The translations under genes and the position numbers were made by a program. From Saccharothrix ecbatanensis (lineage in GTDB: Bacteria > Actinomycetota > Actinomycetes > Mycobacteriales > Pseudonocardiaceae): a DNA stretch of 64,000 nt. The notes under the pieces are model-generated. The model worked only from the letters and a program-made list of their open reading frames with translations, made no database searches and was not told where the DNA came from. The DNA lies in NCBI RefSeq assembly GCF_014205015.1, contig NZ_JACHMO010000001.1, positions 7,564,001-7,628,000 of the forward strand, in the 5' to 3' direction. The first letter of the stretch is position 1, and each line of letters begins with the position of its first letter. Of this stretch, positions 12,265-38,358 are shown one piece after another.

Positions 12265-12335
12265 GCGACCGTCCACAGGCGACCGGCTTGTCCACAGGCG
12301 ACCGGCTTGTCCACAGGTGACCGGCTTGTCCACAG
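12265..12335 (+). repeat. 19-bp tandem repeats, each with a DnaA-box-like TTGTCCACA
   Basis: Three contiguous 19-bp units (12279-12297, 12298-12316, 12317-12335; GCGACCGGCTTGTCCACAG with one change in the third) follow a shortened degenerate unit (12265-12278). Each full unit contains TTGTCCACA, the high-GC actinobacterial form of the DnaA box, at 12288, 12307 and 12326. They lie between convergent genes, so they are not a promoter for either. Confidence 0.9.
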
Positions 12336-12411
12336 GCGCGCCCCACACCGCCGTGATCTGTCGGACCGAGCCGGCAGGATCAAAACAAGGGCTCCCCTTG
12401 GCGGGGGGACC
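12326..12411 (+). repeat. Composite intergenic element, copy A
   Basis: A TTGTCCACAGG box, then 21 bp, then a 54-bp core running from CTGTCGGACC (12358) through GGCAGGATCAAAACAAGG to a CCCC-TTGGC-GGGG hairpin and ACC at 12411. The same order and spacing recur at 29206-29288 and, inverted, at 38255-38358. This copy lies between the convergent histidine kinase and response regulator genes. Confidence 0.8.
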
Positions 12412-12420
12412 TTTGCCCAA

Positions 12421-12499
12421 GCATGACCGCTCAGCGGAGCGTGCGCGGCTAGCGGGAGCATGACCGCTCAGCGGGGTGCGCGGCCGGCGGGAGCATGAC
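12421..12499 (+). repeat. 37-bp direct repeat beside element copy A
   Basis: GCATGACCGCTCAGCGG occurs at 12421-12437 and 12458-12474, with the following GTGCGCGGC...GCGGGA also conserved and a partial third copy (GCATGAC) at 12493. The period is ~36-37 bp. The rest of the 12222-12507 gap contains no gene. Confidence 0.8.
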
Positions 12500-12507
12500 G
12501 GCCGACG

Positions 12508-13137
12508 TCAGCGCGAGCGGCGGGCCAGCCACGCGGCGGCTTGGGTTCGGCGTTCCATGCCCAGTTTCGCGAGCACCGCCGTGACGTAGTTCTTCACCGT
12601 CTTCTCGGCCAGGAACAGGCGTTCGGCGATCTGGCGGTTGGTCAGGCCGTCCCCGATCAGGTCCAGCACCCGCCGTTCCTGCTCCGTCAACGCGTCCAGC
12701 ACGTCCACCTCGACCGGCCGCCGCATGCGGTCGAGCACCCTGGCCGTGGTCTGCGGGTCCAGCAGCGACCGGCCGGCCGCCACCTCGCGGACCGCGGTCA
12801 CCAGGTCCTGGCCCCGCACCTGCTTGAGCAGGTACCCCGACGCGCCGGCCATGATCGCGCCGACGAGAGCCTCCTCGTCGTCGAACGCGGTCAGCACCAG
12901 GCACTTCGGGCCGTCCGGCAGGGCGCGCAGCCCGCGGCACAGCTCGACCCCGCCGCCATCCGGCAGCCGCACGTCCACCACGGCCACGTCGGGACGCGTC
13001 GCCGCCGCCCGGACCAGCGCCTCGTCCACACCGCCCGCCTCGGCGACCACCGAGATGTCGTCCTCGTCCTCCAGCAGTTCGCGCAGTCCCCTGCGCACCA
13101 CCTCATGGTCGTCGACGAGCAACACTCGCACCGGCAC
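12508..13137 (-). CDS. NarL/FixJ-family response regulator, DosR/DevR-like
   Basis: 209 residues from GTG at 13137. The receiver domain (~1-120) has the acidic pair VDDHEVV, phospho-acceptor Asp ~55 in VAVVDVRLPDGG, Thr in LVLTAFDDEE and Lys in GASGYLLKQV. The LuxR-type HTH (~145-205) contains LTEQERRVLDLIGDGLTNRQ and AEKTVKNYVTAVLAKLGMER, close to mycobacterial DosR. It is convergent with the GAF kinase at 11100-12221, its obvious partner. A cyd/hypoxia regulon is inferred. The start is probably leaderless (TATGGT 6 nt upstream). Confidence 0.92.
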   Translation of the reverse strand: MPVRVLLVDDHEVVRRGLRELLEDEDDISVVAEAGGVDEALVRAAATRPDVAVVDVRLPDGGGVELCRGLRALPDGPKCLVLTAFDDEEALVGAIMAGASGYLLKQVRGQDLVTAVREVAAGRSLLDPQTTARVLDRMRRPVEVDVLDALTEQERRVLDLIGDGLTNRQIAERLFLAEKTVKNYVTAVLAKLGMERRTQAAAWLARRSR

Positions 13138-13143
13138 GAACCA

Positions 13144-13149
13144 ACCATA
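13144..13149 (-). promoter_or_regulatory. Putative -10 element (TATGGT) of the response-regulator gene
   Basis: Read on the minus strand TATGGT ends 6 nt before the GTG at 13137, with no ribosome binding site between. It fits the leaderless pattern seen elsewhere in this window. Confidence 0.35.
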
Positions 13150-36338: not shown

Positions 36339-36372
36339 CCGGCGACGTTATCCGACGGGGCACCATGGGGGA

Positions 36373-37197
36373 GTGCAGAGACCTTCCCTTGTGGCATCCG
36401 ACGTCGACGGCACCCTGCTCACCACCCTGGGTCGGGTCAGCCCGCGCACGGCGGACACGGTTCGCCGGGTGTTGGCGGCGGACGTGCCGTTCGTGCTGGC
36501 CACCGGCCGTCCGCCCCGCTGGGTGCCGGAAGTCGCCGACGCGGCCGGCCTCACCGGGTACGCGGTGTGCTCCAACGGGGCGGTGGTCTACGACATCGGC
36601 GCGGACCGCGTGCTGTCGGCCGAGCTGCTGACCCCCGTGCAGCTCAACGACCTGGCCTCGGTGCTCGACGAGGTGCTGCCGGGCTGCTCGATGGCCTCCG
36701 AGAGCGTGGCGGAGACGGCCCGTGACGGCGGTCCGATGAACTCCGACTTCGTCGCCGACGAGCTCTACAACCACCCGTGGGACGAGGGCGCCCAGCCGCT
36801 GCCGGGCCACAAGCGGGCACACGTGCTCGGGCGGCCGGCAGTGAAACTGCTGGTCAGGCACGCGCACATGGCGTCGGCCGACATGGCGGCGGCGGTCGGG
36901 CCGCTGATCGACGGCCAGGTGGCGATGACGTACTCGACCAACGCGGGCCTGCTGGAGTTCGCCGCGCCCGGTGTGACCAAGGCGACCGGCCTGGCCACCG
37001 TCGCGGAACGCCTCGGCGTGCCCGCGAGCGGTGTGCTCGCGTTCGGGGACATGCCCAACGACGTGCCGATGCTGCGGTGGGCCGGTCACGGGGTGGCCAT
37101 GGGGAACGCGCACGCGGACGCGCTCGAGGCGGCCGACGAGGTGACCGCGGCCAACTCGGAGGACGGGGTGGCGTTGGTCCTGGAGCGCTGGTTCTAG
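36373..37197 (+). CDS. Cof-type HAD-IIB hydrolase
   Basis: 274 residues from GTG at 36373 preceded by GGGGGA. HAD motif I ASDVDGTLLTTLGRVS, motif II Thr in VLATGRPPRWVPE, motif III Lys in APGVTKATGLATVAERLGVP, motif IV FGDMPNDVPMLRWAGHGVAM. The C2B cap is inserted mid-sequence (~85-190). Sugar-phosphate or cofactor phosphatase; exact substrate unknown. The gene lies 41 bp before galE and may be co-transcribed. Confidence 0.93.
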   Translation: MQRPSLVASDVDGTLLTTLGRVSPRTADTVRRVLAADVPFVLATGRPPRWVPEVADAAGLTGYAVCSNGAVVYDIGADRVLSAELLTPVQLNDLASVLDEVLPGCSMASESVAETARDGGPMNSDFVADELYNHPWDEGAQPLPGHKRAHVLGRPAVKLLVRHAHMASADMAAAVGPLIDGQVAMTYSTNAGLLEFAAPGVTKATGLATVAERLGVPASGVLAFGDMPNDVPMLRWAGHGVAMGNAHADALEAADEVTAANSEDGVALVLERWF

Positions 37198-37238
37198 GCT
37201 GCCCGTGACCCGCTTGCCTTGTTGAGAGGAACGCTCTC

Positions 37239-38180
37239 GTGCGCGCACTAGTGACCGGCGGCGCCGGTTTCATCGGCTCCACCCTGGTCGACCGGCTGCT
37301 GAGGGACGGGCACGAGGTGCACGTCGTGGACGACCTGAGCCGCGGCAAGCGCAACGCGCCGGTCGACCCGGCCACCGCGGACCGGCACACGTTCTCGCAG
37401 GTGGACATCACGTCGCCGGAGCTGGCCGACGTGGTCGCCGGTTTCGGGCCCGAGGTGGTGTTCCACCTGGCCGCGCAGATCGACGTGCGGGTGTCCGTGG
37501 CCGAGCCGCTGCTCGACGCCACCAAGAACGTGCTGGGCACGGTGAACCTCGCCGAGGCCGCCCGCAAGGCCGGGGTGCGGAAGATCCTGTTCGCGTCGTC
37601 CGGCGGGTCGATCTACGGGACGCCCGAGGTGCTGCCGGTGACGGAGACGGTGCCGATCAACCCCAAGTCGCCGTACGCCGCGTCGAAGGTGTCCGGCGAG
37701 GTGTACCTGAACACGTACCGGCAGCTGTACGGGCTGGAGTGCACGCACTTGGCGCTGGCGAACGTGTACGGGCCGCGGCAGGACCCGCACGGCGAGGCGG
37801 GCGTGGTGGCCATTTTCGCGTCGGCGCTGCTGGCGGGGCGTCCGACGAAGGTGTTCGGCGACGGTGGCAACACGCGTGACTACGTGTTCGTGGAGGACGT
37901 CGTGGCAGCGTTCGTGGCCGCGTCCGGTGAGGCGGGCGGTGGCCGCCGGTACAACATCGGCACCGCGCACCAGGTCTCGGACCGCGAACTGCACACCCTC
38001 GTCGCCCAGGCCGCCGGCGTGCCGGACGAGCCGGAATTCGCCCCGGCCCGGCTGGGTGACCTGCGTGCGTCGGCGATCGACCCGTCCCTGGCGCAGGCCG
38101 AGCTGGGCTGGAAGCCGGAGGTGGACATCGCCACCGGCGTCCGCCTGACCGTCGACTACTTCCGGTCGCTCCAGGCCTGA
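37239..38180 (+). CDS. galE: UDP-glucose 4-epimerase-type SDR (GalE1/Rv3634c-like)
   Basis: 313 residues from GTG at 37239 with GAGAGGA upstream. [20 protein letters not shown] is the NAD-binding start; [35 protein letters not shown] and [15 protein letters not shown] (Tyr/Lys) define the active site. Synteny with the PpgS/DUF2304-like pair just downstream matches M. tuberculosis Rv3631-Rv3634c, where GalE1 makes UDP-Gal, the substrate of Glf for galactan. A UDP-GlcNAc/GalNAc role is also possible. Confidence 0.88.
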
Positions 38181-38247
38181 CCCCACGTCGTCTCGGCGCT
38201 GCCGGCCAGGCCTCGAGCCACCCGCAGCCCTGCCGAACCGCTCCTTG

Positions 38248-38281
38248 AATCAGGGGTCCCCCGCCCAGGGGACCCCTGATT
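38248..38281. terminator. Perfect 14-bp bidirectional hairpin
   Basis: AATCAGGGGTCCCC - CGCCCA - GGGGACCCCTGATT followed by TTTGAT on the plus strand. It lies between convergent galE and the DUF2304 gene and is also the hairpin part of composite element copy C. Confidence 0.85.
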
Positions 38282-38358
38282 TTGATACTTCCAGAAGGGA
38301 CCGACAGTCCGCTGCGGTCGGAGGGCCGCCTGTGGACAACTGCGGCGGCTGTGGACAA
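38255..38358 (-). repeat. Composite intergenic element, copy C (inverted)
   Basis: Read on the minus strand: two TTGTCCACA boxes (38358-38350 and 38339-38331), then 21 bp after the second TCCACAGG, CTGTCGGTCC (38307), GGAAGTATCAAAATCAGGGG, and a GGGGTCCCC/GGGGACCCC hairpin. Core length 53 bp, against 54 in copy A and 52 in copy B. Confidence 0.8.

Follow-up and report, generated by a model that had tools for sequence, protein, structure and literature searches.

A dispersed intergenic element of Saccharothrix combining a putative RecA-NDp-type promoter, a hairpin and, in about half of its copies, a DnaA-type box

Three copies in the window and the family they belong to

We analysed a window of 64,000 nucleotides from the chromosome of Saccharothrix ecbatanensis (contig NZ_JACHMO010000001.1, positions 7,564,001 to 7,628,000), in which three intergenic stretches, called here copies A, B and C, carry the same composite element: a DnaA-type box, a spacer, a core beginning with CTGTCGG, and a hairpin. 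The initial annotation had located all three copies correctly and had seen that two lie between convergent genes and one between divergent ones. Indeed, A and C are found between convergent genes and B between two gene starts. The core did not arise by chance, as its pattern occurs three times in the window at up to 3 mismatches against a mean of 0.01 in shuffled sequences. Similarly, TTRTCCACAGG has 7 matches in the window at up to 1 mismatch, against 0.82 in shuffles. The layout of box, spacer and core stands as annotated, with a corrected spacer: the 20-21 bp given at first resulted from counting an extra G into the box, and the distance from the TTRTCCACAG 10-mer to the CTGTCGG 7-mer is 22, 21 and 22 bp in copies A, B and C, respectively.

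On the forward strand, copy A has its DnaA-type box TTGTCCACAG at 12326..12335, 22 bp before CTGTCGG, and two extra TTGTCCACAG boxes precede it (12288-12297 and 12307-12316, within 12288..12316), the three starting 19 bp apart at 12288, 12307 and 12326. They are followed by TGTCGG, which we call a PafBC-type -26 element for reasons given below (12359..12364), by a -10 element CAGGAT that holds the invariant A and T of the family (12375..12380), and by the hairpin (12386..12415), which adjoins the putative +1 and whose reverse-strand tail is GTTTTGATCC. Copy B, also on the forward strand, is flanked on one side by the start of a glycosyltransferase gene (27909-29060, minus strand) and on the other by serS (beginning at 29699). 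It has the box TTATCCACAG (29206..29215, 21 bp before CTGTCGG), the PafBC-type -26 element TGTCGG (29238..29243), a -10 element CAGAAT (29254..29259) and a hairpin (29265..29293). Copy C is on the reverse strand, with a DnaA-type box TTGTCCACAG at 38330..38339, 22 bp before CTGTCGG, a second TTGTCCACAG 19 bp upstream of it (38349..38358), the -26 element TGTCGG of PafBC type (38301..38306), a -10 element AAGTAT (38285..38290) and a 15-bp hairpin (38248..38281). Its stem is made of 15 pairs; those of A and B contain a mismatch or a bulge.

Degenerate repeat arrays adjoin all three copies, as had been noted. They lie on both sides of copy A (12271-12338, and downstream at 12420..12499), downstream of copy B (29331..29573, not conserved in the close relatives aligned) and upstream of the boxes of copy C (38413..38568). 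Pieces of the element's 3' arm, CGAAGC for instance, recur in downstream arrays, both in that of copy B (29331-29573) and at loci L004, L018, L024 and L027. A lone TTGTCCACAGG at 13681-13691, near the start of a response-regulator gene, is part of no copy.

The genome, a single contig of 9,689,237 bases (9.69 Mb; labelled G000, its relatives G001 onward), contains 28 places matching the element pattern at up to 2 mismatches, against 0 for the reversed pattern used as control. We aligned the 22 that carry the hairpin, leaving out the six without it, and built from them a covariance model. Run on the same genome, with 150 of 4833 first-look candidates scored, it gave at least 88 matches at E<=10, including 38 at E<1e-5 and 34 at E<1e-11. 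The idea that only three copies exist is thus ruled out by the 34 strong matches, and the initial annotation's own test, dozens of intergenic copies with kept spacing, came out positive, the box gap being always 21-22 bp. One of the 38 matches is the hairpin half of a split copy. At this split locus (L095, genome positions 9491116-9493429) the promoter and hairpin halves of one copy are about 2.25 kb apart, and the split ends GACCTGGTCTCAAAAC / GTTTTGAGACCAGGTC with a repeated TAA resemble the hit of an insertion element. Two further full-length matches, at 1502028 and 8815380, have the promoter and no hairpin. Tandem pairs of elements also occur, in this genome at 6816686 and 6816884 (198 bp apart) and elsewhere as one pair listed under both L060 and L154 (158 bp apart).

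Among the 40 genomes searched, this one included, 25 have a match at E<=0.01. Within the genus the proportion is 22 of 24. All named records with the exact core-plus-hairpin pattern belong to Saccharothrix (17 stretches; records close to our genome may have been omitted). In the open-access literature we found no relevant report on the element sequence, on Saccharothrix small RNAs or on interspersed repeats. The analyses below use 67 copies, 34 from this genome and 33 from relatives, identical copies being dropped, or an alignment of 48 (30 own and 18 from relatives), which omits the four weakest of the 34 own copies, L073 and other loci.

Putative promoter, box and hairpin of the element

RecA-NDp promoters have the consensus TTGTCRGTG-N8-TAnnnT. 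For S. rimosus the form is quoted as TTGTCAGTGGC-N6-TAGggT (PMC2375139), and two further papers have PafBC acting through the RecA-NDp motif, with the helix-turn-helix (HTH) of PafB binding the -26 element and single-stranded DNA activating PafBC (PMC11804915, PMC6789036). The core of the element, TGTCGG and then GG-N-A-NNN-T, fits a DNA-damage promoter of this PafBC type, its dependence on PafBC being presumed from the likeness. The promoter of the genome's own recA gene, TTGTCGGACCCCACCCGTAACGTC, found at the expected place, has a -26 and -10 layout identical to that of the element. It is devoid of the CAAA stretch, so in the element this stretch probably serves the U-tract read from the reverse strand. 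More generally, 16 of 24 recA upstream regions match the TGTCRG form, and of the eight others seven carry TGTCGTACCCC, the form of a sister clade, the eighth being L175. The initial annotation had recognised no described family, which holds only in part, since the core can be recognised as a RecA-NDp (PafBC-type) promoter.

In the 48 aligned copies no variation is seen at the A of -11, at the T of -7, at the GG preceding the -10 or at the G and C within TGTC. Some copies have a decayed or different -26 form (8375335 and 8197133), two weaker own ones (7989243 and 8306121) have TGTCGT, and the spacing is one base shorter in L087 and in the copy C of relative G019. The presumed regulator is encoded in the genome: a stretch of 8 kb holds a Pup-ligase gene together with the genes of a WYL protein, which is pafB by position, and of a protein matching Pfam HTH_PafC (1e-43), the last two about 4 kb from the Pup-ligase gene and, on reading, adjoining tatA and tatC. 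An ncbifam search named neither PafB nor PafC; Pfam named PafC.

The box, which the initial annotation took as a regular part of the element, is present in A, B and C and is not fixed in the family, 35 of the 67 copies being without it. In the 32 others it stands within 2 mismatches of TTRTCCACAG (25 are exact), at a gap of 21 (23 copies) or 22 bp (9 copies), which letter-shuffled upstream sequences reach in 0.07% of cases. As 34 of the 35 boxless copies have no exact TTRTCCACA within 150 bp either, we distinguish two classes of copies. They also differ in the promoter. Box copies have C at the first -10 base in 28 of 32 cases and T in 1 of 32, with a T after TGTCGG in 20 of 32; in the boxless class, 18 of 35 begin their -10 with T and 30 of 35 have TGTCGG followed by A. 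The weaker -10 of the box copies may be compensated by the box, or the two classes may only be two lineages.

The distance from the -7 T to the stem is 5-6 nt in 65 of the 67 copies. At several genes of other Actinomycetes that stand behind a promoter of this type (see below), the start codon is found 4-7 nt after TAnnnTC, which suggests leaderless mRNAs and would put the +1 of the element on the stem's first base or beside it. The hairpin stretch alone folds better than its shuffles, with z of -2.7, -1.8 and -5.0 for A, B and C and of -5.0 to -5.6 for three others. With the stem ends taken from folding, a U-rich tail (at least 4 T in 9 nt) follows it on the reverse strand in 63 of 67 copies and on the forward strand in 2 of 67; the T-runs that L070, L071 and 5848333 show on reading behind the arm fall outside that count, being folded into the stem or too short. 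In the stem orthologous to that of copy C, G019 shows two compensated pairs (AATCA/TGATT versus AACCG/CGGTT), and G013 has, on reading, a longer stem. The last conserved piece is GC-GNA-GC right after the stem, GNA being present in 47 of the 65 copies parsed out of 67. GNA loops make stable mini-hairpins, and this motif favours a role as RNA or as single strand. Our search of the open-access literature for GNA mini-hairpins gave no relevant report.

We compared nine sites at which the element is shared between genomes, in 18 pairs (tandem copies at one site were reduced to one pair; the pairs also have species in common). Differences amount to 14/140 positions in the box and 125/1039 in core and hairpin (10-12%), against 98/307 in the spacer (32%), 241/587 in the 40 bp upstream and 315/780 in the 40 bp downstream (40%). 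The box, spacer and upstream figures come from the 14 of 18 pairs with both boxes at up to 2 mismatches, and the comparison admits only copies recognisable on both sides, so decay is under-counted and conservation favoured. Decay is nevertheless visible at single sites: in G019 the box of copy B has decayed, and at position 8353607 our genome keeps vestiges of box and TGTCGG, the copy of G019 there being complete.

The box at RecA-NDp-type promoters of other Actinomycetes

The combination of box and promoter extends well beyond the element. With the gap held at 20-23 bp it was found in 8 of 296 genomes of the phylum, namely our own and seven of one genus, g22 (Streptomyces-like on reading); among the g22 loci that we read, it belongs to the recA promoter in L131, L124 and L125 and precedes another gene in L123 and L129. 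When gaps of 8-38 bp were allowed, we obtained 23 matches in 22 of 298 genomes of the order and 72 in 66 of 394 genomes of the class, the reversed-pattern control giving 0 in both. The gene behind is recA at 16 of the 23 order loci and at 25 of 30 loci retrieved from the 72 in the class. The others include ligA on reading (L192), DUF222 genes and unnamed genes; Pfam matched 2 of the 3 DUF222 proteins checked (L187 and L225, with no match for L249), and L190 and L228 are DUF222-type by reading. At four of these DUF222-type loci (L187, L190, L225 and L228) the genes have leaderless-looking starts right after the promoter, with some boxes one helical turn nearer or farther. Thus the RecA-NDp/PafBC-type promoters of many Actinomycetes, recA among them, carry a DnaA-type box, and by sequence comparison the box is older than the element.

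Measured from CCACA to TGTC, the gaps are 12 (1 match), 22 (13), 23 (1), 24 (2), 33 (1), 34 (2) and 35 (3) in the order, and 12 (2), 13 (2), 22 (7), 23 (12), 24 (45), 25 (3) and 33 (1) in the class. They fall only in groups of 12-13, 22-25 and 33-35 bp, about one helical turn apart, with no other length; measured likewise, the element itself has gaps of 23-24. The initial annotation had proposed that the two parts must sit on a fixed face. Box and core are indeed kept while the spacer drifts, and the offset of the gaps by about whole helical turns speaks for the proposal. It is weakened by the fact that 83 of the 95 matches lie in the main group, so that the phasing claim rests on the 12 others, among which L186 and L202 are similar sequences from a single genome and L187 and L190 are similar genes. 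Since related genes are not independent, we give no p-value. We found no earlier report of a phased DnaA-type box at RecA-NDp/PafBC-type promoters in the open-access literature.

A proposed host-maintained regulatory element and its alternatives

Taken together, these results lead us to favour, by a little over an even chance, a dispersed and host-maintained regulatory element in which a damage-inducible promoter is joined to a terminator that serves the gene opposite. Its parts, their spacing and conservation, the gene context and the likeness to recA promoters are seen in the sequence itself, from which the start site, transcription, PafBC-dependent induction, DnaA binding, termination and the direction of the effect are predicted. 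The first part would be a sigma-A promoter of the RecA-NDp, PafBC-dependent type. The second, in about half of the copies, would be the DnaA-type box 21-22 bp upstream, on the same face of the helix as at other promoters of this type, with DnaA as its likely partner. The third would be the GC-rich hairpin, which probably has two jobs, as the 5' end of the promoter's RNA, at or next to its presumed first base, and, on the opposite strand, as an intrinsic terminator of the gene that faces it. As long as cells are unstressed, transcripts of the converging neighbour would end at the hairpin. Upon DNA damage, PafBC would direct RNA polymerase to the same spot, and DnaA or another reader of TTRTCCACAG would help where the -10 of a copy is weak. 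The product would be a short RNA with a 5' hairpin, antisense into the 3' end of the neighbour or, in a minority of layouts, towards a gene. Where no gene follows, the promoter would have two candidate uses, antisense interference and the production of a short hairpin RNA.

Several observations weigh against this proposal. Most copies drive no gene, the own recA promoter has no box, and the first T of the -10 consensus is found in only 19 of the 67 copies. At site 4763487 the copy of G007 is boxless, its box being lost or never there. When 44-nt RNAs are folded, copies A and B do not stand out from shuffled sequences (z 0.33 and 0.38). Covariation is modest: in the 48-copy alignment the structure scores above shuffles, yet double changes are more frequent in slid versions, and having obtained no decision from 22 copies and only this modest signal from 48, we dropped covariation as the main proof of the hairpin. 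Finally, copy B is present in 3 of 10 relatives and copy C in 2 of 10, and match numbers range within the one genus from 0 (G004, G012) to 103 (G019), a Y1 transposase gene being present in our genome and in the two richest relatives, all of which would also fit a mobile repeat.

A selfish or formerly mobile interspersed repeat, of the repetitive extragenic palindromic (REP) or miniature inverted-repeat transposable element (MITE) kind, carrying promoter and terminator by chance and tolerated at 3' ends, is in our opinion unlikely. Besides presence and absence at orthologous sites, the 65-bp cores of boxless copies are alike, as a mobile repeat would have it. Turnover is high: of 37 copies of relatives compared with the sampled own DNA (three of them duplicates from two collections), nine map no more than 300 bp from an element of our genome, the L154 pair, which is the L060 pair, maps about 1 kb off, and the rest fall elsewhere or outside the sampled DNA. 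The Y1 transposase (PF01797) is found in 5 of 24 genomes, three of them rich in matches (our own with 43, G013 with 89 and G019). However, the two other carriers, G018 and G023, have only 1 and 4 matches, and the 19 genomes without it include G001, G003, G005, G017, G020 and G022, which have 33-51 matches each. This makes mobility by a REP-associated tyrosine transposase (RAYT) less probable. In our genome a Y1-type transposase gene lies at 7231169-7231480 (L262), with 4.4 kb between it and an element. The few sites compared show neither a target duplication nor clean boundaries. The conservation at shared sites also speaks against a tolerated repeat, as does chromosomal position: 33 of the 34 strong copies lie within 2.92 Mb of dnaA (7.44 Mb), with the chromosome reaching 4.84 Mb away, and beyond that limit, chosen after seeing the data, 13.5 copies were expected and 1 was seen (uniform test, p 2e-5). 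Such a concentration is expected for old content of the chromosome's conserved half. A rule of replication direction was discarded, as the orientations read from the copy list, with no formal test, are inconsistent relative to replication.

The sister species G010 provides kindred but different modules, which again could suit a mobile repeat. In 800 kb of its DNA a strict hairpin rule gave 0 elements, and the covariance model 17 weak matches, mostly to such a module. Its recA form is TGTCGT, and its 14 promoter-like modules there comprise 7 with TGTCGT, 6 with TGTCGG and 1 with TGTCAT, 8 of the 14 being followed, on reading, by hairpin DNA of GGGGGCC type; TGTCGT is found in 0 of the 30 own rows of our 48-copy alignment. 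The promoter part may therefore follow the local recA form while the hairpin differs, which plain descent explains as well. The modules of this G010 family (L264-L303, for instance L287, L292 and L284) share the promoter layout, often stand in twos 47-49 bp apart and have a GGCC-GGA-GGCC hairpin.

It is distinctly improbable, in our view, that the element is only a repeated intrinsic terminator, its A/T-rich -10 and CAAA being the reverse U-tract and its promoter look accidental. The reverse U-tract in nearly all copies accords with a terminator, and so does the gene context. With genes called by a simple purpose-built coding model, 16 of the 34 own copies placed are between convergent genes, 15 between tandem and 3 between divergent ones (four of the 38 being unplaced), against 67 convergent among 392 background pairs from the same sampled DNA, or 16 among the 91 pairs with gaps of 150-1500 bp. 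Other hairpins also replace the element, on reading, at the aligned site of copy C in G008, G022, G020 and G005. Behind a gene ending in DEASF, which reads as rpoC, two relatives (L070 and L071) have a boxless element with TTTT after the stem where a terminator would be expected, and our genome (L106, around 7264040) has another hairpin. But a terminator needs neither TGTCGG beyond its U-tract nor, 21-22 bp further out, the box, and both are kept at shared sites while the spacer drifts. This bears out the earlier remark that the element is "not merely a terminator". Moreover, its layout equals that of recA promoters.

We attach a similarly low probability to the reading that each copy is a gene whose functional product is a tiny structured RNA, some 33 nt long and made of the hairpin and the GC-GNA-GC mini-hairpin. 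A hairpin beginning at or next to the presumed +1 would agree with such a gene, and so would conservation that extends to the GCGNAGC after the stem, a motif useless to a reverse terminator, and stops there, the next 40 bp differing like other flanks. Against it stand the scarcity of forward U-tracts and the result of an Rfam search, which gave 0 matches at gathering score in the window.

Sites for DnaA titration or chromosome organisation, with the boxes as the point and the rest as setting, are very improbable: perfect TTRTCCACA boxes, several of them 19 bp apart, the location at elements of 23 of the 36 such boxes counted over 490,781 bp of this genome (sampled around elements) and the 10 of 34 strong copies within 0.5 Mb of dnaA where 3.5 were expected would suit them, but the boxless copies have kept core and hairpin, and titration does not need a fixed gap to a promoter.

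Returning to the proposed damage-inducible element, if DnaA acts at these boxes, replication control and the DNA-damage response would meet at one promoter. If the whole reading is true, the joining of a known promoter type to a terminator hairpin, in copies dispersed over the genome and apparently under selection, would amount to a new genome-wide damage switch for antisense or short hairpin RNAs. A bolder version, speculative and on balance doubtful, would have Saccharothrix and its kin keep damage start points at gene ends, where PafBC and DnaA as co-activator reporting replication state fire dozens of tiny RNAs with a 5' hairpin and GC-GNA-GC against converging genes, the box-promoter being an ancient two-input promoter (replication initiator and single-stranded-DNA sensor) common to the recA of many Actinomycetes.

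How does the element compare with known systems? DnaA boxes in transcription control (reviewed in PMC8203912) share TTRTCCACA with it, and its upstream place and phased gaps suit an activator; the available part of that source mentions no PafBC-type promoter, and the element, where DnaA binding is presumed, mostly keeps a G after the 9-mer. REP and bacterial interspersed mosaic element (BIME) repeats and MITEs are likewise short hairpin-forming repeats scattered at the 3' ends of genes, their copy number varying, and the element differs from them by the lack of a Y1 partner in most genomes, by its conserved promoter and by the upstream box in half of its copies. Like intrinsic terminators, it has a GC-rich hairpin with a U-rich tail on the reverse strand, but its U-tract doubles as the -10 region of a putative promoter on the opposite strand. 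It is closest to the RecA-NDp/PafBC regulon, with which it shares TTGTCRG, the spacing from there to the -10 and the TTGTCGGACCCC of the own recA promoter. It differs from this regulon in having GAC or GTC for GTG and often C at the first -10 base, in being mostly located at gene ends, in its dozens of copies, and in the hairpin at its putative +1.

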